From NCBI RefSeq assembly GCF_900104645.1, contig NZ_FNWE01000001.1:193765-257764 (forward strand): a stretch of DNA of 64,000 bases. Direction: 5' to 3'. The DNA comes from Alterileibacterium massiliense. GTDB lineage: Bacteria; Bacillota; Clostridia; Peptostreptococcales; Anaerovoracaceae. Of the stretch, positions 1 through 50,011 are shown piece after piece. The notes under the pieces were generated by a model that did no database searches, was not told where the DNA came from, and was given only the letters and a program-made list of their open reading frames with translations. Made by a program: the position numbers and the translations under genes. Positions within the stretch are counted from its first letter, which is position 1; every line of letters begins with the position of its first letter.

Positions 1-1242
1 TTGATGCTCTTCGGGTGTTCTTAACTCAAATGATTTTTGATTTCTGAGGACAGCAAAAATAATTTGAACCATCTTTCGCATAATTGCACACATTACAACT
101 TTGTATGGTTTTTCAGCTATCTTCTTTTCAAAATAAGCTCGCATAACAGGATTTAAATACTCTCTGTTGCGATTTGGATACACATTAGATTTAGCCAGCA
201 TATGGAGAATTGAGCGAACATGAGGTGATCCTCTTTTAGAGATTTTATTGTTTTTCCTATTGTATGTTCCACTTTGGGTTACTCCTGGATCCAAGCCAAA
301 GAAGGCAACTAATTCTTTCGGTTTCGAGAAATTGGATATATCTCCAAGCTCTGATAAAACAACACATGCTGTATACTCTCCAACTCCTGGAATACTTTGT
401 AAAAGCACTATTTCTTTATGAAACTTTTCATCTAAAAGTGATAGCCTTTTGATTTCATTATCGATTGCTTTCAAAGCTTCCTGTAAACTAAAAATAACCC
501 TCACAGTTGTTTGAATAAGTACTGCTGAACTAAGGCTTACTATACAAACTTCAATAGATTTTTCAGCAGCTTTCAATAGTTTTTCATATTTTACTTCGGC
601 ATAGGAGCTGCTTTTATGTGAATTTTCTTTTATCAGTTGAATAATATCTTGCTTATTTTCAGGAGATAAGACTTCCTGTATAGTAGGATATTTTTCAAGC
701 AAAGACAAAGGTGTTTTCCCTTGCAAATCCGCAAATACTTTCTTGAAATCTGGAAAGGAAATATCTAAAAAAGCGATTAATCGGTTGATGTGTTCCACAA
801 TTTCATCCGTCAATTCTTTATGCTGTCTGCAAAGCTTTTTGATACTGTTAACGGTATCTGAATGTGTAATTGTTTCGTTGTAATTCTTAATACGATATAG
901 CAACGCTATATTATATGCATCTGTTCTATCTGATTTAATTTTTCGGATATTGATATTTTTCAATGCTCCACTTTGAATCGGATTAATTACAATGACTTCG
1001 TAATTATGCTTACGGAAAAAATTAGCTAAAATTTGATGATAGTGTGCAGTAGCTTCCATGATAATTACTGCTCTGTCCTCGTACTCATCTTCTACCTTTT
1101 CAAGTACATAGATGAGCGACTTCATACCATTAATATCATTAGAAATTTTAAGTCTTTTGATGATGTCATTATTAGGTGATAGAATACAGATATCACTGAA
1201 AGCTTTACTCACATCAATTCCTACAACAATTTTTTCTGACAT
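1..1242 (-). CDS. IS110-family transposase, copy A (3' end outside window)
   Basis: The RuvC-like DEDD transposase of the IS110 family starts at 1242 (ATG behind AGGAGG) and runs leftward off the window, lacking only the last dozen or so codons. The sequence is the mirror image of the complete copy at 8731-10008: the same VVGIDVSK start, the KSDRTDAY motif, and the C-terminal PGVGEYTA and SKRGSPHVR motifs of the Transposase_20 domain. The enzyme catalyses cut-and-paste or circular-intermediate transposition guided by a structured RNA from the element. It is intact as far as visible. Confidence 0.9.
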   Translation of the reverse strand, partial: MSEKIVVGIDVSKAFSDICILSPNNDIIKRLKISNDINGMKSLIYVLEKVEDEYEDRAVIIMEATAHYHQILANFFRKHNYEVIVINPIQSGALKNINIRKIKSDRTDAYNIALLYRIKNYNETITHSDTVNSIKKLCRQHKELTDEIVEHINRLIAFLDISFPDFKKVFADLQGKTPLSLLEKYPTIQEVLSPENKQDIIQLIKENSHKSSSYAEVKYEKLLKAAEKSIEVCIVSLSSAVLIQTTVRVIFSLQEALKAIDNEIKRLSLLDEKFHKEIVLLQSIPGVGEYTACVVLSELGDISNFSKPKELVAFFGLDPGVTQSGTYNRKNNKISKRGSPHVRSILHMLAKSNVYPNRNREYLNPVMRAYFEKKIAEKPYKVVMCAIMRKMVQIIFAVLRNQKSFELRTPEEHQ

Positions 1243-4285: not shown

Positions 4286-7200
4286 ACCTCCAATTCGTGA
4301 TTTTTTGATTTTGCCGCTTTTTTCTGTGCGGTCTTTTCTTTGTCTGCTCTAAGCTGCGCCCGGATAGAGGGCTTCTTTTCCGTTTTTGCTGCCTTGCCGC
4401 GTTCCTTGTCAGCCTTGACAGCTTCCGCAAGGTCAACAAGGGAAATGGTTTCTCCTGCCTTTACCTTTGCTTCCAGTTCTGCAACGGTCGGGGTGTTGTT
4501 TATCTGCCCGTCAATCATATTGTAGTTTTGCTCGGTGGTCTGCTCGGCAGCTTTCAGATAGTTTTCCGGCTGAACGGGAACAGCAAAAGCCCTTGTGCCG
4601 TTCCCCATAATCAGATATTTTCCGTCGTCGGACTGGTGGTGCAATCCATATCCGGCAGCTTCCATTTGCTCGCGGCTCATGGTGGTTACATAGAAAGTCC
4701 CCCTCGGTGTTTTGATTGTTTCGCCCGTTTCCAAGTCGTCGGGAATGAGGGCTTTTTCCTGCTCCTTGAAAAACTCCGGCACGTCCTTATAACCGAAGCT
4801 GTCTACATAGTGGGCGGTGTCCTGCCCGTTCTGATGAAGTACCACCACGTCGGAAACGGAAAGGCTGTGTCCCTTAAAATCTTTCGGGTGGTCGATATTG
4901 AAGCGGGTGTAAATATCTTCAAGGGAAGTCCCCGGCGTAAGTTCTGCGGAATAGACAAGCGCATAGTTTTTCGCGTCTACCCGGTGTCCTGTGGCAGTCA
5001 GACGGTCATAAGGTTCAAAACGCAAGTCCCTTGTTTCGTCCCAGCCTTTTATCTGATAAATGGAAAAGGTGTCTTTGTCCTGTGGGGCTTCCTGTTCCGG
5101 CTGCTCCTGTGTGGGTTGTTCCTGTGCAGCTACCTTTTGCGCCCGGATATGCGCCCGTTGTAACTCGGTAGGCTTTTCCCCGGTAAGGGGTGCAATCGCT
5201 TTCACATAATCAGCCGCATAGTAGGCGTTACTGGTAAGCTGCCGCTGCCATGCCCCTGCTTTTGGCGACCAACGGAAACCGTTACTTTTTAATGCTTCCC
5301 GCGTGGCTTCGTCCGGCTTATCCTCAAAGAAGATTTGCAGTCGGTTCGCTTCGGTGTTTGCTTCCACCTTGCCGCCGTCAAATTCCCAACCGACAAAACC
5401 GATTTCTTTTTGCTGTGAAAGGGATTTGATACGGTCTTTCACGCGCCGGATTTCTGCGCTGTTGTTGGATAACGCCCAAGTCGCAAAGGGCTTGTCCTCC
5501 AAATGCCAACTGCTCGCCATGTCTGCTTTCAGTTTTTCCAGTTCCTCCGGCGGTAAATGCGGGCAGCCGTCAAGGGTCTTATGCTTGCGGTAATAGGCGT
5601 TTACGGCTTTCATGGTTTCCTGTGATTTTTCAAGGCTTTCCAGTTTCTTTTCTAACTTCTGTACTGCCTGCGGGTCGTCTGCGCTGATACCGCCCATGCC
5701 GGTACTGCGGATTTTATCAAGAAGTCCTTGTATGTCCTGCCATTCCCGGTAATTGCTGTCGCGGGCTGCGTTCTGCTTTTCTTTCTTCCTTGTGGGGAAG
5801 TTAGAGCCGCCCGCAATCAGGATAGAGGGAACACGCGCGTCAATCTCATAGCCTTTGTTCATGTTCGCTGCCAGTTTCCGGGCGTAGGTGTCAAGCAGGC
5901 TGTCGATTTTCTCATGGTACATCGGGTCTACCCGTTGTTTCTGCCTTTCTGCAAGCTGTACGGCTTCATCTACATAATGCCTGTATTCAGCCGTCGCGCT
6001 GCCTTGCTTATAATCGGAAAAGCTGTTCATATCCTTTGCGCGTTTGGCGGCAGCTTCGTTGATAGTGTAATAAGGGGCGGGTGCAGCCTGTTCCGGCTGT
6101 GCTTCTTTTTCCTGTACCGGGGCTATTTCTTCGGGAAGCTCCGGCGCGGCTGCTTCTGCTTCGGGCTGTTTGGCGGCTTCCTGTGCGGGCTGTGCCTGTT
6201 CAGTGGTCTGTTCCTTATCCTGTGCCTTTTGGATTTCTGCAAAATGCCCGTCTATGGTATCAATCAGCTTTGCGGCTGTGCTGCGGATTGTTTCAAGAGA
6301 GCCTTTCAGTTCTGCAAGTTCTTTTCCGCTGCTCCACCCGGCGATATATCCAAAAGAATAGTCCGACGTATCAAGCCCGTAATGTTGGCAGACAGCATAG
6401 GCGACGCTTTCCGCCTGTACCTCGCGGGTGCGGCGGTCGGGGCGTTCCGGCATAGCAAGGGCAGTATCATGCAGCGTGGCGTGGGCGATTTCATGGATTG
6501 CGGTCTTGATGTTCTGCAATTCGTCCATACCCTCGTTGATAATGATACGCTTTTCCTCATAATTGCAGCGTCCTTTTACGCCGCCGCTTAGTGCTTCAAA
6601 TTCCATAGCAAACGGGGAAGTCTTTTCAAGGGCAGCGAAAAAGTCCTTGTATTGTTCCACGTTGCCCGTCAGCTCATAGGTAAGGGCAGGAAGCTCCTTT
6701 CCCTCGGTCTGTGAAATATCAAAGACAGATACCACACGAAAAGCGGGTATCTTGATTTCCTTTTCCTCGGTAACAGGTTTCCCGTCCTTGTAGAAAACAG
6801 GTTTTTGGGTGTCCGGGTCGATTTTTTCCACCTGTTTCTTAACGGTAAACGGGGACGGCGCAAGTATCTTGATAGCTTTTTCTCCGGGCTTTACATGGCG
6901 GTCAAATTCCTTTTCCCATTGTTTATAGCCTTTCACAAGATTGCCGCCCTGCATGGCGATAAGGATTGTATTGTTAAGGCTGTAATCATGGAATTTAGAC
7001 ATAGTACGCAGATAGTCGGCGTAACGGTCGCTTTCATAAAGCCCTAAAATTCCTTGTTCCAGTCGGTCGGTAATCTCTTTCATTTTATCGGCAGGCTTTT
7101 CAGAAGATAGGATAATCGGGAGAACCGGGGGCTGCTCTGTGGCGGCGGTCGGTATGACTGCGGAAGCGTCAAGGTCTGCCTGTTCCTTTTCCTGTACTGG

Positions 7201-8307
7201 CGGCTGCGGCGTTACCCGGTATTCCTCCGGCACGTCGCGCCCGTCGTACCATTCTGTAAAAGTGTTGCGGTTATTGTAGATATAGCCCTGCTCGGTAAAT
7301 CTGCCCCCATCATTGATAGCAGCGTCCCGCCCGTATTCCTCATACATGAAATATTTTTTTGCTTCTTCGGGCAGCTCCAACTCGTCCAGTTCTTCAATCA
7401 GATAATACCCGTAATCTTCCTCACTCTGTACGGACGGATAAAGCCAGTAACAATCAAGGTTTTGTGCAAGATTGATAATGTCCTGCAAGTCCCTTGTATG
7501 GTCGCCGTATTCCATAGCTGCAACAAATTTTTCCCGGTCGTCGTCAAACTGCATTTTCAAAAGTTCGCCCAAATAGTTCAGCTCGTCAAGGCTTTCAAGC
7601 TCGGTCAATTTTCCTGCCAGTCCCGCAATAGAGGACTGGTATTCTGTGATGTGCAGCTCCCCGTAGTTTTTGCCGTCTATCCCGATACGGTCAAAGACTT
7701 CTTTCAAATGCTCGGCAGTCGTGGGGAATGATACCCATTCGCCCGCAAGTCTGCCCTCGGTGTACTTTCCAAGATTAGAAAGATACCCGCTTAAAATCGT
7801 TTCTGCCATGCGTTCACTCCTTTCGTTTTCAATCATGCGGTGCATAAGTTCGTAGTCCTCCATGCTCATGCTCCCGTCAAATAGATAGGGGTCGGGTTCT
7901 TCGCCGTCCCGGTAGGCTTTTTCAGAGAATGGAAGCCCCGCAGCGTGGGCGGCGGCTCTTGCTTCCTCGATAAGCTCCGACGGCAGCCTGTCGTCGTGGA
8001 CTTCGATAAATTCCCCGATATTGCTATATCCGTTTTCGTAGTGGTGGCGCACCCCGGCGGTCAGTTCGTCAAGGCTCATATCCTCGCCAAGATAGCCGGA
8101 ATAATAGCCGTTTACCACAACGGCGGCAGGGTCAGCCTGTTTGATTTCTTCCATGCGGCTTCTGTCCTCCGGGTAGAGAATATCGCTCATTTCAAGGTGG
8201 AAATATTCGGCGTTCCAAGAACGTCCCGTTTTCCAAAACGCCACCCAAGCGATACCGTCCCTTAATTCTTCTTGATAGTCCTTTACGGTGTCCCGTAAAC
8301 TTGCCAT
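4282..8307 (-). CDS. Large polyvalent anti-restriction protein (ArdA-like, ArdC-like, metallopeptidase, YodL, DUF4316)
   Basis: A multi-domain protein of 1341 residues. In order: an ArdA-like region (DNA-mimic anti-restriction; YIYNNRNTFTEWYDG near residue 340); an ArdC-like single-strand DNA-binding domain from about 407; a zinc metallopeptidase motif HEIAHATLH near 604; an acidic linker rich in E, P and Q; coiled coil; a polyvalent-protein module (GFRWSPKAGAWQR, about 1010); a YodL-like domain (about 1075-1180); and DUF4316 at the C-terminus, ending in a lysine-rich tail. It probably enters the recipient with the DNA and shields it. The ATG at 8307 is chosen for AAAGGAGGT upstream. The domain names rest on recalled family patterns. 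Confidence 0.8.
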   Translation of the reverse strand: MASLRDTVKDYQEELRDGIAWVAFWKTGRSWNAEYFHLEMSDILYPEDRSRMEEIKQADPAAVVVNGYYSGYLGEDMSLDELTAGVRHHYENGYSNIGEFIEVHDDRLPSELIEEARAAAHAAGLPFSEKAYRDGEEPDPYLFDGSMSMEDYELMHRMIENERSERMAETILSGYLSNLGKYTEGRLAGEWVSFPTTAEHLKEVFDRIGIDGKNYGELHITEYQSSIAGLAGKLTELESLDELNYLGELLKMQFDDDREKFVAAMEYGDHTRDLQDIINLAQNLDCYWLYPSVQSEEDYGYYLIEELDELELPEEAKKYFMYEEYGRDAAINDGGRFTEQGYIYNNRNTFTEWYDGRDVPEEYRVTPQPPVQEKEQADLDASAVIPTAATEQPPVLPIILSSEKPADKMKEITDRLEQGILGLYESDRYADYLRTMSKFHDYSLNNTILIAMQGGNLVKGYKQWEKEFDRHVKPGEKAIKILAPSPFTVKKQVEKIDPDTQKPVFYKDGKPVTEEKEIKIPAFRVVSVFDISQTEGKELPALTYELTGNVEQYKDFFAALEKTSPFAMEFEALSGGVKGRCNYEEKRIIINEGMDELQNIKTAIHEIAHATLHDTALAMPERPDRRTREVQAESVAYAVCQHYGLDTSDYSFGYIAGWSSGKELAELKGSLETIRSTAAKLIDTIDGHFAEIQKAQDKEQTTEQAQPAQEAAKQPEAEAAAPELPEEIAPVQEKEAQPEQAAPAPYYTINEAAAKRAKDMNSFSDYKQGSATAEYRHYVDEAVQLAERQKQRVDPMYHEKIDSLLDTYARKLAANMNKGYEIDARVPSILIAGGSNFPTRKKEKQNAARDSNYREWQDIQGLLDKIRSTGMGGISADDPQAVQKLEKKLESLEKSQETMKAVNAYYRKHKTLDGCPHLPPEELEKLKADMASSWHLEDKPFATWALSNNSAEIRRVKDRIKSLSQQKEIGFVGWEFDGGKVEANTEANRLQIFFEDKPDEATREALKSNGFRWSPKAGAWQRQLTSNAYYAADYVKAIAPLTGEKPTELQRAHIRAQKVAAQEQPTQEQPEQEAPQDKDTFSIYQIKGWDETRDLRFEPYDRLTATGHRVDAKNYALVYSAELTPGTSLEDIYTRFNIDHPKDFKGHSLSVSDVVVLHQNGQDTAHYVDSFGYKDVPEFFKEQEKALIPDDLETGETIKTPRGTFYVTTMSREQMEAAGYGLHHQSDDGKYLIMGNGTRAFAVPVQPENYLKAAEQTTEQNYNMIDGQINNTPTVAELEAKVKAGETISLVDLAEAVKADKERGKAAKTEKKPSIRAQLRADKEKTAQKKAAKSKNHELEV

Positions 8308-8730: not shown

Positions 8731-10008
8731 ATGTCAGAAAAAATTGTTGTAGGAATTGATGTGAGTAAAGCTTTCAGTGATATCTGTATTCTATCACCTA
8801 ATAATGACATCATCAAAAGACTTAAAATTTCTAATGATATTAATGGTATGAAGTCGCTCATCTATGTACTTGAAAAGGTAGAAGATGAGTACGAGGACAG
8901 AGCAGTAATTATCATGGAAGCTACTGCACACTATCATCAAATTTTAGCTAATTTTTTCCGTAAGCATAATTACGAAGTCATTGTAATTAATCCGATTCAA
9001 AGTGGAGCATTGAAAAATATCAATATCCGAAAAATTAAATCAGATAGAACAGATGCATATAATATAGCGTTGCTATATCGTATTAAGAATTACAACGAAA
9101 CAATTACACATTCAGATACCGTTAACAGTATCAAAAAGCTTTGCAGACAGCATAAAGAATTGACGGATGAAATTGTGGAACACATCAACCGATTAATCGC
9201 TTTTTTAGATATTTCCTTTCCAGATTTCAAGAAAGTATTTGCGGATTTGCAAGGGAAAACACCTTTGTCTTTGCTTGAAAAATATCCTACTATACAGGAA
9301 GTCTTATCTCCTGAAAATAAGCAAGATATTATTCAACTGATAAAAGAAAATTCACATAAAAGCAGCTCCTATGCCGAAGTAAAATATGAAAAACTATTGA
9401 AAGCTGCTGAAAAATCTATTGAAGTTTGTATAGTAAGCCTTAGTTCAGCAGTACTTATTCAAACAACTGTGAGGGTTATTTTTAGTTTACAGGAAGCTTT
9501 GAAAGCAATCGATAATGAAATCAAAAGGCTATCACTTTTAGATGAAAAGTTTCATAAAGAAATAGTGCTTTTACAAAGTATTCCAGGAGTTGGAGAGTAT
9601 ACAGCATGTGTTGTTTTATCAGAGCTTGGAGATATATCCAATTTCTCGAAACCGAAAGAATTAGTTGCCTTCTTTGGCTTGGATCCAGGAGTAACCCAAA
9701 GTGGAACATACAATAGGAAAAACAATAAAATCTCTAAAAGAGGATCACCTCATGTTCGCTCAATTCTCCATATGCTGGCTAAATCTAATGTGTATCCAAA
9801 TCGCAACAGAGAGTATTTAAATCCTGTTATGCGAGCTTATTTTGAAAAGAAGATAGCTGAAAAACCATACAAAGTTGTAATGTGTGCAATTATGCGAAAG
9901 ATGGTTCAAATTATTTTTGCTGTCCTCAGAAATCAAAAATCATTTGAGTTAAGAACACCCGAAGAGCATCAAAAACTAATTCGAGAAAAGAGTAAGTTAG
10001 TCGCATAA
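8731..10008 (+). CDS. IS110-family transposase, copy B (complete)
   Basis: This protein of 425 residues has an N-terminal DEDD RuvC-like domain (VVGIDVSK, IMEATAHY, KSDRTDAYNIALL), a coiled-coil middle and a C-terminal Transposase_20 domain with SIPGVGEYTA, GLDPGVTQSG and SKRGSPHVRSIL. The serine of the last motif is the expected second catalytic residue of the family. The start ATG follows AGGAGG at the correct spacing. The gene is AT-rich, unlike the GC-rich transfer genes beside it, which marks it as a later arrival. It is full length with no disruption. Confidence 0.93.
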   Translation: MSEKIVVGIDVSKAFSDICILSPNNDIIKRLKISNDINGMKSLIYVLEKVEDEYEDRAVIIMEATAHYHQILANFFRKHNYEVIVINPIQSGALKNINIRKIKSDRTDAYNIALLYRIKNYNETITHSDTVNSIKKLCRQHKELTDEIVEHINRLIAFLDISFPDFKKVFADLQGKTPLSLLEKYPTIQEVLSPENKQDIIQLIKENSHKSSSYAEVKYEKLLKAAEKSIEVCIVSLSSAVLIQTTVRVIFSLQEALKAIDNEIKRLSLLDEKFHKEIVLLQSIPGVGEYTACVVLSELGDISNFSKPKELVAFFGLDPGVTQSGTYNRKNNKISKRGSPHVRSILHMLAKSNVYPNRNREYLNPVMRAYFEKKIAEKPYKVVMCAIMRKMVQIIFAVLRNQKSFELRTPEEHQKLIREKSKLVA

Positions 10009-20073: not shown

Positions 20074-21993
20074 ATGAAAATAATTAACTTAGGCATTCTG
20101 GCTCACGTTGACGCAGGAAAGACAACCTTAACGGAGAGTTTATTGTATACCAGTGGTGCAATTGCAGAACTAGGGAGCGTAGATAAAGGCACAACAAGGA
20201 CAGATACAATGAATTTGGAGCGTCAAAGGGGAATCACTATCCAGACAGCAGTGGCATCTTTTCAGTGGGAGGATGTAAAAGTCAACATTATAGATACGCC
20301 AGGCCATATGGATTTTTTGGCGGAAGTATACCGTTCTTTATCCGTATTAGACGGAGCAGTATTATTAGTTTCTGCAAAGGATGGCATACAGGCACAGACC
20401 CGCATACTGTTTCATGCACTACAGACAATGAAGATTCCGACAATTTTTTTCATCAATAAAATTGACCAAGAGGGGATTGATTTGCCAATGGTATATCGGG
20501 AAATGAAAGCAAAGCTTTCTTCGGAAATTATAGTGAAGCAAAAGGTTGGGCAGCATCCCCATATAAATGTAACGGACAATGACGATATGGGACAGTGGGA
20601 TGCGGTAATTATGGGAAACGATGGACTATTAGAGAAATATATGTCAGGGAAACCGTTTAAAATGTCAGAACTGGAACAGGAAGAAAACAGGAGATTCCAA
20701 AACGGAACGTTATTTCCCGTTTATCACGGAAGCGCTAAAAACAATCTTGGGATTCGGCAGCTTATAGAAGTGATTGCCAGTAAGTTTTATTCATCAACGC
20801 CTGAAGGTCAATCTGAACTATGCGGGCAGGTTTTTAAGATTGAATATTCGGAGAAAAGGCGGCGTTTTGTTTATGTGCGTATATATAGCGGAACATTGCA
20901 TTTGAGGGATGTTATTAGAATATCTGAAAAAGAGAAAATAAAAATCACAGAGATGTGTGTTCCGACAAACGGGGAATTATGTTCATCCGATACAGCCTGC
21001 TCTGGTGATATTGTAATTTTACCAAATGATGTTTTGCAGCTAAACAGTATTTTGGGGAACGAAATGCTGTTGCCGCAGAGAGCATTTATTGAAAATCCTC
21101 TCCCTATGCTCCAAACAACGATTGCAGTAAAGAAATCTGAACAGCGGGAAATATTGCTTGGGGCACTTACAGAAATTTCAGATGGCGACCCTCTTTTAAA
21201 ATATTATGTGGATACTACAACGCATGAGATTATACTTTCTTTTTTGGGGAAAGTGCAGATGGAAGTCATTTGTGCCATCCTTGAGGAAAAATATCATGTG
21301 GAGGCAGAAATAAAAGAGCCTACTGTTATATATATGGAAAGACCGCTTAGAAAAGCAGAATATACCATCCACATAGAAGTCCCGCCAAACCCTTTCTGGG
21401 CTTCTGTCGGGTTGTCCATAGAGCCGCTCCCTATTGGAAGCGGAGTGCAGTATGAAAGCAGAGTTTCACTTGGATATTTAAACCAATCGTTCCAAAATGC
21501 GGTTATGGAGGGGGTCCTCTATGGCTGCGGGCAGGGGCTGTATGGATGGAAAGTGACAGACTGTAAAATCTGTTTTGAATATGGATTGTATTATAGTCCT
21601 GTAAGTACCCCCGCAGACTTTCGGCTGCTTTCCCCTATCGTATTGGAGCAGGCTTTAAAAAAAGCAGGGACAGAACTATTAGAGCCATATCTCCAATTTG
21701 AAATTTATGCACCGCAGGAATATCTCTCACGGGCGTATCATGATGCCCCAAGGTATTGTGCAGATATTGTAAGTACCCAGATAAAGAATGACGAGGTCAT
21801 TCTGAAAGGAGAAATCCCTGCCAGATGTATTCAAGAATACAGGAACGATTTAACTTATTTCACAAATGGGCAGGGAGTCTGCTTGACAGAGTTAAAAGGA
21901 TACCAGCCAGCTACTGGTAAACTTATTTGCCAACCCCGCCGCCCGAATAGCCGTATAGATAAGGTTCGGCATATGTTCCACAAGTTAGCCTAA
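20074..21993 (+). CDS. tet(O): Tet(O)-type tetracycline resistance ribosomal protection protein
   Basis: A 639-residue EF-G-like GTPase that dislodges tetracycline from the ribosome. GTPase motifs are AHVDAGKTT (G1), RGITIQTA (G2), DTPGHMDF (G3) and NKIDQ (G4). The length and nearly the whole sequence match remembered Tet(O), including the ending [17 protein letters not shown]. Scattered substitutions could mean a variant or a mosaic with Tet(32) or Tet(W), which I cannot test here. The ribosome site is GATAGGAGG. It is preceded by the characteristic attenuator leader. Confidence 0.95.
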
Positions 21994-27906: not shown

Positions 27907-28333
27907 TTCCTTTACTTTATTCAATAAGAGAGAAGCCTGCTTATGGCAAATAGGAAAATGTAAAGAAAATAATCCCTTTCAAATATTGATCTTTGACAAC
28001 TGAATAGACCAAGGTAGGACTTTATCTACTTGTGGAGAATTATGACTTACGCCATGATCTTTCTGCTGAAAGCAATTTCGGTTCTATGAATACTGGGTTA
28101 GCCAAGGATACAAGAAAGTGAGCGATAAATAAGAATACATAAAAAACAGAGGTGGCAATCTGTTCGGTGATACAAGTAGTGATAATGATACTTCAATAGT
28201 TTAAGCCGGCTCGTCTTAATAAGGGGCGGAGGTGAGATTCCTATGTTGCTGCCAAGCACCTACCAATGTCATAAAACTTAGTAAGATAAATAATAGTTAA
28301 TTAAGGAAAATTTAAAGCGGAGGAGGTGTGTTA

Positions 28334-32558: not shown

Positions 32559-32674
32559 ATTAAAGGGAGTAAGGACTCGCTACATCCTTTTCAAAATACA
32601 AAACTCTAATAGCCAACTTTACATATTCGCTTTTATAGCATATAATAAAAGCGTAAATGAGAGGGGGGCGGACT

Positions 32675-33262
32675 ATGAATACACTTAAAGAATATATACA
32701 AGAAAAATTAGTAATCACAAACAAAGAAGCAGAAGAACTTGGAAATACCAGGCATAATTTATCAGAATTAACAAAGAGTGGACAATTAGAAAGATTAAGA
32801 CCAGGACTATATCAATTAAAAGGAAAAGTTATAGACGATTTTGTTTTAATATCATCAAATAGTAATCGAATTATATTTTCCCATCAAACAGCCCTATACC
32901 TCCACAACCTATCAGATAGAACTCCAAATGTATTTCATATATCTGTACCTCAAGGCTATAATGCCAGCCATATCAAAAAAAGATATGAAGATTTACAAGT
33001 TCACTATGTAAAAAAAGATCTATACGAATTCGGAAAGACAGAAATAAAATCACCGCAAGGCAATTTTATACCAGTTTACGACATTGATCGAACAATTTGC
33101 GACATTATAATCAACAGAGAAAAAATAGATAAACAAATTTTCACAGAAGCCTTAAAAAGATACTTTAAATCATCAAATAAAAATCTAAGACGACTCATAA
33201 AATACAGTAGACTATTTAAAATAGAAGATGAAATTAGGAAATATATGGAGGTATTATCGTGA
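32675..33262 (+). CDS. abiEi: AbiEi-type antitoxin, first AbiE locus
   Basis: A 195-residue antitoxin and repressor of the type IV AbiE system. The N-terminal winged-helix segment (ITNKEAEELGNTRHNLSELTKSGQLERLRPGLYQL) is followed by the AbiEi core (SHQTALYLHNLSDRTPNVFHISVPQGYN). The ATG at 32675 is chosen for GAGGGGGGCGG upstream. The stop overlaps the toxin's GTG start, the usual coupling. A homologous antitoxin lies at 48581. Confidence 0.85.
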   Translation: MNTLKEYIQEKLVITNKEAEELGNTRHNLSELTKSGQLERLRPGLYQLKGKVIDDFVLISSNSNRIIFSHQTALYLHNLSDRTPNVFHISVPQGYNASHIKKRYEDLQVHYVKKDLYEFGKTEIKSPQGNFIPVYDIDRTICDIIINREKIDKQIFTEALKRYFKSSNKNLRRLIKYSRLFKIEDEIRKYMEVLS

Positions 33263-34101
33263 TTAATATCGAGAGTATAAAGGGCAAGATAAGAAGCATG
33301 GCAGAGAAGAAAAATTTAAAATCCCAAGAAGTTCTTTAAATATATTTTTTCAAAAGATTTTTAGAAAGGCTATCTAAATCAAAGTACAAAAATAATTTTG
33401 TAATAAAAGGTGGATTCCTTATATCATCATTAATCGGAATTGAAAATAGAACAACTATTGACATGGACACAACCATAAAAGGCATAGCCCTAAAAGAAGA
33501 AAAAATAAAAGAAATTGTAGAAGAAATAATAAATATCAATGTAGATGATGGAATAAAATTTGAAATAAAAGACATCAGTTATATTAGGGAAGATGATGAG
33601 TACGAGAACTTTAGAATTTCACTAATAGCAAATGTTGGGAAAACTAAAAATCCAATGAAACTAGACCTAACAACAGGAGATGCAATAACACCAAGGGAAA
33701 TAGAATACACATATCCCTGTATCTTTAGCAAAGAAAATATAAAAATAATGGCATATCCATTAGAAACAATTTTAGCTGAAAAATACGAAACAATAATCAG
33801 AAGAAATATAACAACGACAAGAATGAGAGACTTTTACGACCTGTATACCCTCTACAAACTAAAAAAAGATGAGATAAACTATGAAATTTTAAAAGAAGCA
33901 ATAGAGAGAACCTCAAATAAAAGGGGAAGTCAGGAGATAATGAAAGACTATGAGGAAATAATCGAGGACATAAAAGAAGATTTATACCTAAGATCCTTAT
34001 GGGAAGTATATCTCAGTGAAAATAAGTATATTGGAGATTTGACTTTTGATAAGGTGGTTGATGTAGTGACGATTATTTCAAATAGGGTTAGTGAGATGTA
34101 A
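33259..34101 (+). pseudogene. abiEii: AbiEii-type nucleotidyltransferase toxin, interrupted by one stop codon
   Basis: The toxin frame opens at GTG 33259, overlapping abiEi, and reads INIESIKGKIRSMAEKKNL ... EVL. A TAA stop at 33337-33339 follows, then IYFFKRFLERLSKSKYKNNFVIKGGFLISSLIG and the rest of the protein to 34101. The position corresponds to a Gln in similar toxins, so a single CAA-to-TAA change explains it. The nucleotidyltransferase motif (KGGFLISS...TTIDMDTTIKG) and the motif ETILAEKYETI are otherwise intact. Restart at an internal ATG (33463) would lose the active-site region. Confidence 0.8.
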
Positions 34102-48174: not shown

Positions 48175-48202
48175 TTGACTTTTGAATTTAATATTATATA
48201 AT
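48175..48202 (+). promoter_or_regulatory. Promoter of the repeat RNA
   Basis: TTGACT (48175-48180) and TATAAT (48197-48202) are 16 bp apart; the expected start lies a few bases before the first repeat. Confidence 0.7.
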
Positions 48203-48215
48203 CAATTGTACAAAA

Positions 48216-48314
48216 GCGGAGGACCCTGCCGTAGTGGGAATAAAAAAAGCGGAGGACCCTGCCGTAGTGGGAATGAAAAAAGTGGTGAACCCTACCATAG
48301 TGGGAACGAAAAAA
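48216..48314 (+). repeat. Three tandem 33-bp repeats
   Basis: Units start at 48216, 48249 and 48282. The first two agree except at one base near the end. The third differs at several positions but keeps ACCCT, CATAGTGGGAA and the A-rich end. There are no spacers, so it is not a CRISPR array. Confidence 0.9.
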
Positions 48315-48317
48315 GTT

Positions 48318-48348
48318 AGAGGAGAGATGATAATCCCTCCTCTTTTTT
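48318..48348 (+). terminator. Terminator of the repeat RNA
   Basis: AGAGGAG (48318-48324) pairs with CTCCTCT (48337-48343), followed by TTTTT. Confidence 0.8.
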
Positions 48349-48580
48349 GATATAATTTTAATGATTTAGGTTTTGTAGCAATTTAGATTGCCTTTTATAA
48401 TTTTTTTAAAAATGCAATGAAGAATATGTCAGGTAAGAAGGAAAAGAAACATCAGTTAAGGGGAGATGTAATATGTGGTCGGATTGGTCTTAGGATTGAA
48501 ACGGCTTTTTCTTTTGCCCAAATAATTGACTTTTGTTCTTATAAAAAGTATTATATAAGAATAAAAAGGCGGTTATATAA

Positions 48581-49180
48581 ATGACAAAACGAGAATTATT
48601 ATTAAATACAATTAAAGATAATAAAGGCATTATCACTACTAAAGAAGCATTGGAACTTGGTATTCATAAAGATATATTGAAAGAATTAACGCATAGACAT
48701 GAAATTATAAAAATAGCAGGAGGACTGTATGGACTTCCAAATGAAGAAATAGATGAATATATTTATTTTTCGCATAGAGTTCCAAAAGGGATTTTTTCTC
48801 ACGAGACTGCAGCCTATCTTCAGGGATTATCTACAAGAATGCCACTTATTTATGTTATGACAGTGCCTGCTGGAGATAATGTAAGTAGAATAAAAGCAAT
48901 GAGAGATGACATTATTTTTAAGTATAGCAAAAAAGAATATTATGATATAGGTAAAGAAAAAATAATCAATCCTTTTGGGAGAGAAATTTTTTCCTATGAT
49001 AAAGAAAGAACATTGTTAGATTTAATTAAGGACAAGAATAGAATTGACACAGGTATATTTAGTGAAGCTATAAAATTATATTTTGGAGGGGTAGATAAAG
49101 ATTTATTAAAACTCTCAAAATATGCTATTTGTATGAATATGGAAGAACAATTGAAAACATATACGGAGGTATTGCTATGA
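48581..49180 (+). CDS. abiEi: AbiEi-type antitoxin, second AbiE locus
   Basis: A 199-residue antitoxin of the AbiE system, clearly related to the one at 32675. It has a winged helix (ITTKEALELGIHKDILKELTHRHEIIKIAGGLYGL) and core SHETAAYLQGLSTRMPLIYVMTVPAGDN. It starts behind AAAAAGGCGG and overlaps the toxin start by 4 bp. No lesion is seen. Confidence 0.85.
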   Translation: MTKRELLLNTIKDNKGIITTKEALELGIHKDILKELTHRHEIIKIAGGLYGLPNEEIDEYIYFSHRVPKGIFSHETAAYLQGLSTRMPLIYVMTVPAGDNVSRIKAMRDDIIFKYSKKEYYDIGKEKIINPFGREIFSYDKERTLLDLIKDKNRIDTGIFSEAIKLYFGGVDKDLLKLSKYAICMNMEEQLKTYTEVLL

Positions 49181-50011
49181 AAACATCAGAGCAAATGAAG
49201 GGAGCAATTAGAAATATATCTAAAAAAACAGGAGCAAACCCAAATTCTTTGCTTCAGATGTGCTTGTTTGAAGGAATACTAGAAAAAATATCTAAATCTA
49301 AATATAGTGAAAATTTTATCTTAAAAGGTTGTCTGTTGATTTCTTCACTCATAGGAGTGGATATGCGTAGCACAATGGATATGGATAATACGATTAAAGG
49401 AATTCCAGTAAGCGAAGAAACTATAACCAAAATAATTAAAGAAATATTAGAAATTGAAATAGATGCTGATATTGAATACAAGTTAATTAAGTTATCTCCA
49501 ATCAGACAGAAAGATGTTTATGAAGGTTTCTGTGCCGGCATTTCCTGCAACTTTGGAAAAATCAATGCAAGTTTAAATATAGATATAACGACCGGAGATA
49601 TTATTACACCAAAGGAGATGAAATATTTATATTCAAAGATTTTAGAAGAAGGGACAATACCTATTATGACATATAATATTGAAACAATTATTGCCGAAAA
49701 ATTTGAAACAATATCAAGCAGAAATATTACAACAACAAGAGCAAGAGATTTTTATGATTTATATATGTTATATTCTATTTATAAAGATAAGATTGATGGT
49801 AAATCATTGAGAGAAGCCATAGAAAAAAAGTAAAAATAGAGGCTCATCAAAATCAGTTAATAAATATAGAGAGGTAACAGAATTACTCAAAGCCAGTGGA
49901 ACGACAAAAAGTTTATGGGAAAAATATATAAAAAGCAATCCATATGCAAAAGACATTAACTTTTTTGATACCTTAGCTGTATATGAAACCATAGGTAGCA
50001 TATTAGAATAA
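49177..50011 (+). pseudogene. abiEii: AbiEii-type toxin, frameshifted near the C-terminus
   Basis: The frame opens at ATG 49177 and runs 218 residues to 49833 with intact nucleotidyltransferase core (ENFILKGCLLISSLIG...STMDMDNTIKG) and IETIIAEKFETI. At a run of seven A near 49826 it goes out of frame. The next frame then reads KNRGSSKSVNKYREVTELLKASGTTKSLWEKYIK to 50011, the expected C-terminal helix bundle. One extra A explains it. The shorter protein keeps the active site but lacks the last 60 or so residues. A sequencing error in the A-run is possible. Confidence 0.75.

Follow-up and report, generated by a model that had tools for sequence, protein, structure and literature searches.

Within the 64-kb stretch of DNA analysed here (the window), positions 48175-48348 very probably span an entire transcription unit encoding an antitoxin RNA of the ToxI type, in a genome from which the ToxN toxin gene has been lost. 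Transcription of this RNA most likely continues, and a cognate ToxN entering the cell could be neutralised by it; whether the window copy is such a shield or a relic that has not decayed is about an even question. Dozens of other gut bacteria carry arrays of the same family beside ToxN, and arrays left without their toxin are frequent.

The preliminary description of this DNA had proposed a promoter, three 33-bp repeats and a terminator at this position, and this layout is borne out by repeat detection, promoter match and a hairpin with a T-run. The unit opens with a plus-strand sigma-70-type promoter (48175..48202; TTGACT at 48175-48180, TATAAT at 48197-48202, spacer 16), which agrees with 11 of 12 consensus positions and is the top promoter-like site of the region; relatives have a -10 box in the corresponding position. 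It is followed by a tandem array located by TRF at 48212-48315 (period 33, 3.2 copies, score 159), which is the top array in the window (runner-up 92) and is single-copy in the source genome. The array divides into three plus-strand, 33-nt ToxI-type pseudoknot units: unit 1 (48212..48244), recognised by TRF, the family alignment and, below its cut-off, the Rfam ToxI model; unit 2 (48245..48277), recognised by TRF and identical to unit 1 at 32/33 positions; and unit 3 (48278..48310), to which the Rfam model aligns, again below its cut-off. Unit 3 is identical to unit 2 at 27/33 positions and to unit 1 at 26/33, so that, as first described, the third repeat is diverged (six differences from unit 2) and yet keeps the period of 33. 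A hairpin scan placed the intrinsic terminator, the end of an RNA of about 140 nt, at 48318..48348 on the plus strand, as an 11-bp hairpin (48318-48343) followed by T6; the scanner called this hairpin on the minus strand, and it is readable as a terminator on both strands.

When relatives were sought with a first pattern allowing ≤2 mismatches, 297 genomes of the same family yielded one more single unit (L004), while a covariance model built on four units and run on 394 genomes of the order detected arrays of three units in Mogibacterium timidum (L019/L062) and in two termite-gut Clostridiales (L020, L021). A degenerate pattern derived from those arrays was then used in a single scan of 85,000 species genomes, which returned 83 loci. 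Four of these (L029, L038, L053 and L099) were excluded as single chance matches, leaving 79 real loci, mostly of two to three units with a period of 33-35 nt, preceded by a -10 box and closed by a terminator. These come mainly from Lachnospiraceae, Oscillospiraceae and other Clostridia, with a minority labelled Spirochaetia, Synergistales, Fusobacterium, Anaerolineaceae or Coriobacteriales. Neither the exact nor the degenerate patterns matched IMG/VR, and searches of IMG/VR, phages and plasmids turned up no mobile ToxIN carrying exactly the window's unit. A blastn search of the region against phages and plasmids gave A/T-rich chance matches only, a match to Fusobacterium phage phiBB proving unrelated on inspection. 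At L034 (reverse strand, 4390-6310) the second unit is separated from an intact ToxN by some 2 kb of unrelated sequence; by eye this interruption resembles an insertion with an intron-like end.

Alignment of the units gave the consensus AAA-GYGGW-G.A-CCC-U-RCCR-loop-AGU-GGG-A, in which each unit forms an H-type pseudoknot of two interleaved stems, GGW/RCC (stem 1) and CCC/GGG (stem 2), with compensatory changes in both. In stem 2 the middle pair changes from C-G to U-A in eight distinct units from several lineages, and the last pair from C-G to A-U once (L093); in stem 1 a G-C pair becomes A-U twice (L061, L096). The search pattern had left the stem-2 middle pair free while fixing other positions, and the covariation at that pair was therefore not built in. 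Across 43 distinct units, double-sided changes occupied 14 cells, as against 4.1 ± 1.4 in shuffles, none of 500 of which reached as high, and most of the covariation signal was gone when the partner columns were slid by one to three. The window's own unit 3 carries a paired change, GCGG/CCGU to GUGG/CCAU, that preserves stem 1. Over the same 43 units stem 2 is paired in 100% of cases and stem 1 in 76.7%, the lower figure reflecting a short GG/CC core with non-canonical ends, namely an outer pair that is C.A in most units and an inner position that alternates between U-A and A.G. A simple hairpin, suggested by the minimum-energy fold that pairs unit 1 with unit 2, was rejected because covariation favours the pseudoknot within each unit.

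The covariance check against type III families that had been proposed for these repeats came out divided: the ToxI model of Rfam (RF02519) aligns in register and over its full length (unit 3, 28.3 bits, E 0.004, model 1-34; unit 1, 15.2 bits), and these scores stay below its gathering cut-off of 50. In an Rfam search of larger stretches, relatives' repeats next to ToxN were not listed either, and the model thus seems too narrow for this branch. At about 35 loci an intact ToxN (PF13958) lies right after the terminator, its frame of some 160-200 aa starting about 50-60 nt past the last unit, and a genome from the same family as the source organism (G024) has this same layout of array and ToxN. 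Five adjacent toxins that were tested scored 147-181 bits against the Pfam ToxN_toxin profile (PF13958), and their closest solved structure is 4ATO, the ToxN of B. thuringiensis, followed by the ToxN of E. coli and P. atrosepticum and by AbiQ; no toxin adjoining the array family rose above the NCBIfam cut-off for TenpIN. Since ToxN directly follows the array in relatives, the repeats can be read as the antitoxin of ToxIN systems, and the objection that relatives might never carry a ToxN-like gene falls away. The preliminary description had left the choice between ToxI, CptI and TenpI layouts; with ToxN next to the relatives' arrays ToxI is supported and the other two are not favoured. The preliminary reading is largely correct, and the window RNA can be placed more narrowly with ToxI instead of being called type III-like.

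In the window the toxin itself is missing. The absence of a toxin frame after the terminator, already remarked from the letters, holds up in a six-frame profile search with stops read through, which found no ToxN-like frame or remnant anywhere in the 64 kb. The orphan status extends to the genome: neither PF13958 nor a profile of 22 cognate toxins found a ToxN in the 1.45-Mb, two-contig assembly (G000), whereas the latter profile detects ToxN in 4 of 61 genomes searched, two of them from the same family. As ToxN is absent from both window and genome, we do not assign a complete type III toxin-antitoxin system. A cognate toxin could have been missed in the unassembled tenth or so of the genome, which is 89.5% complete by estimate, or could be too diverged for the profiles, ToxN homologues sharing at times less than 30% identity. 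We consider this improbable, given that the assembly is in only two contigs, that the A3 profile picks up toxins and fragments down to about 23-38 bits elsewhere, and that intact loci nearly always have the toxin directly after the terminator, where the window has none.

Arrays that lack a toxin recur across the family. Downstream sequence allowed 69 loci to be sorted: the toxin is intact at 35, broken or truncated at 13 and, by profile, absent from 21, among them the window; this sorting was done by hand from profile outputs, and assembly errors may account for some of the broken toxins. Apart from the source genome, 23 genomes whose arrays are toxin-less or relics were searched for ToxN; 20 gave no match anywhere, while three toxin-bearing controls did match. 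Truncated toxins were seen at nine loci (L033, L039, L049, L054, L065, L070, L072, L087 and L096) and C-terminal toxin remnants at three (L025, L031 and L055). One conserved chromosomal site, before a gene that is DUF1015-like by eye, carries the toxin in L100 and has lost it in L025, L031, L047 and L055. Read to the stop codon, the toxin tails of L025 and L031 are both SHGNIVRS, and that of L055, HCLEYSNNCADKQ, matches YCLEYSHNCADKQ of L100. The two species represented by L025 and L031 are identical in the unit (36/36) and the terminator (38/38) and nearly so in the promoter (71/75), as compared with 118/171 identical fourfold sites in the next gene (31% differ) and 59% in the spacer. If both inherited one deletion, which their common tail suggests, selection would have preserved the antitoxin in the absence of the toxin; if the two losses were separate and recent, the identity would carry no such meaning. 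Toxin-less loci have fewer units on average than toxin-bearing ones (2.19 vs 2.71, p 0.02), and the integrity of the extra units does not differ significantly between the two groups.

Some of these loci have arrays of mixed composition. In L052 (JAOABT010000304.1, first ~210 bases of the reverse strand) a single window-class ToxI unit comes first and is followed by three units, each about 36 nt long, that belong to another ToxI class (GGTGTTTCGCCACCGAAAGTGCGACTGG), with a divergent ToxN (120 bits) after them. L056 combines two window-class units with one of that other class and has no toxin. The toxin-less L084 (reverse strand, 7397-7620) has three units and then two copies of another repeat of about 36 nt; it adjoins phage-type genes (holin-like by eye) and is possibly a prophage anti-ToxN locus.

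The window's array shares with known ToxIN systems (the ToxI of Pectobacterium atrosepticum and Bacillus thuringiensis, and AntiQ/AbiQ of Lactococcus) a promoter, tandem pseudoknots of 33-36 nt, A-rich linkers and a terminator, and differs from them in having no toxin gene, in its CCC/GGG stem 2 and in scoring below the Rfam ToxI cut-off. In such systems the units that ToxN cuts from the ToxI precursor bind the enzyme and block it, and antitoxins supplied from another replicon are functional (PMC5086642, PMC5772629); the repeats number 2.9 of 34 nt in ToxI-Bt and 2.8 of 35 nt in AntiQ (PMC5086642). A plasmid ToxIN of Lactococcus (L130) and a Clostridioides phage array (L128) have GCGGTGA..ACCAT..AGTG in common with the window's family, and their stem 2 differs but still pairs (UCUC/GAGA and GCUC/GAGC, respectively). 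CptIN (Eubacterium rectale) and TenpIN have the same type III layout with pseudoknot repeats, CptI being a 45-nt pseudoknot whose L1 is a single base and whose L2 is long and A-rich (PMC4627078); unlike in those systems, the toxins beside the window's array family are ToxN. A parallel to toxin-less ToxI repeats is found in phage PhiTE, which escapes ToxIN by producing ToxI-like repeats, its pseudo-ToxI suppressing a ToxN encoded elsewhere (PMC3475682). That element is phage-borne, came about through expansion or recombination and serves to overcome abortive infection, whereas the window's array is chromosomal, has its own promoter and terminator and resembles the remainder of a ToxIN locus. 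Type II orphan, or anti-addiction, antitoxins are likewise kept without a toxin and have been suggested to prevent the post-segregational killing that invading elements cause; they are proteins, while the window's array would act as RNA.

In an intact ToxIN system the cuts made by ToxN fall in the linkers, and the freed pseudoknots then trap the enzyme. The window's RNA of about 140 nt would consist of three 33-nt H-type pseudoknots with A-rich linkers between them and, with no resident ToxN, would lie idle until a cognate ToxN arrived on a plasmid, phage or other mobile element, which the array RNA could then bind and inhibit in trans. We infer each of these steps (transcription, cleavage and inhibition), and likewise shielding as the reason for the array's intactness. 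That an orphan array can act as a shield follows from the function of antitoxins from another replicon and from the escape of PhiTE, and ToxN genes, present on 163 plasmid records (many of them mobilizable) and also in phages, make an invading ToxN a real possibility. More broadly, we tentatively suggest, at somewhat less than an even chance, that solitary ToxI arrays are recurrent, selected stand-alone RNA antitoxins in Clostridia, providing chromosomal immunity against mobile-element ToxN, sometimes with more than one unit specificity per array (L052, L056 and perhaps L084).

The array may instead be a pure relic, a former ToxIN locus that has lost its toxin and whose antitoxin, at present useless, has so far escaped decay, and this too we hold plausible without rating it as high as even. 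The toxin must be lost first, as loss of the antitoxin first is lethal, and the truncated toxins and C-terminal remnants at other loci look like stages of such a process; the slightly lower unit number of toxin-less arrays is also what slow decay would give. Against this stand the window's array itself, in which all three units are intact at 19/19 fixed positions and promoter and terminator are intact, yet no toxin remnant is left; the L025/L031 pair, identical in unit and terminator despite its fourfold divergence after an apparently shared deletion; and the lack of a significant difference in the integrity of extra units with and without a toxin.

Two readings do without an antitoxin of ToxN. 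The next gene, as had been stated, is AbiEi-like (48581..49180, plus strand; PF13338 18.1 bits against a cut-off of 25), and an AbiEii-like nucleotidyltransferase gene comes after it (49174..50007, plus strand; PF08843 98 bits); both are neighbours, outside the RNA unit. Because this pair lies downstream in the same direction, and an orphan unit at L075 also precedes an AbiEii-type gene, the array might be an RNA leader or attenuator of AbiEi/AbiEii or an RNA antitoxin adopted by them. This is very unlikely: the full terminator and 232 bp separate the array from AbiEi, which has a promoter-like site of its own (48526-48554); the family's usual next gene is ToxN, and the neighbours of orphan arrays are unrelated (for example DUF1015-like, HicB-like or GroEL-like genes); and, while AbiEi is open, the window's AbiEii is frameshifted at about 49833, its C-terminal part continuing in another frame to about 50007. 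Joint conservation of array and AbiE was not found, an AbiEii-type neighbour occurring at one other locus only (L075). To the idea that the repeats are coding we give almost no credence. A 45-aa frame with an 11-residue repeat is open at 48182-48319, and 33 is divisible by 3, but periods of 34 and 35 occur in relatives, whose arrays often mix different periods, and the sequence changes leave the stems intact.

Catalogues of type III systems have taken the toxin as their starting point, which leaves toxin-less antitoxins invisible; the survey described in PMC5086642 starts from ToxN homologues and for that reason could not detect them. In the open-access literature searched, nothing listed describes a type III antitoxin without its toxin, though such a report may exist. 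By searching from the RNA, we find that a large share of the assessable arrays of this ToxI class (about 34/69) lack an intact toxin. If even part of them is under selection, as L025/L031 suggest, bacteria keep RNA antidotes to a toxin they no longer own, and the anti-addiction hypothesis would then be directly testable with an element of about 140 bp in a standard rescue assay.

Several further features were noted in passing. At L075 (Ruminococcus sp. zg-924, reverse strand, 729-2130) a single orphan unit and terminator are followed by a small gene and then by the AbiEii-type gene (PF08843 42.7 bits); apart from the window, no further instance of AbiE behind an orphan unit was seen. A second AbiEi-like/AbiEii-like pair, its second gene apparently incomplete, is visible by eye at 32657-34098 of the window. 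Positions 1-30300 appear by eye to be a mobile-element region, with relaxase-like genes, two serine-recombinase-like genes, one transposase in two copies (1-1242, minus strand; 8731-10005, plus strand) and, also by eye, a Tet ribosomal-protection-type GTPase gene (20074-21990). At 28182-28246 an Rfam pemK RNA (RF02913, 50.7 bits) lies ahead of a short frame and, beyond this, a recombinase-like gene; no PemK gene is apparent by eye.
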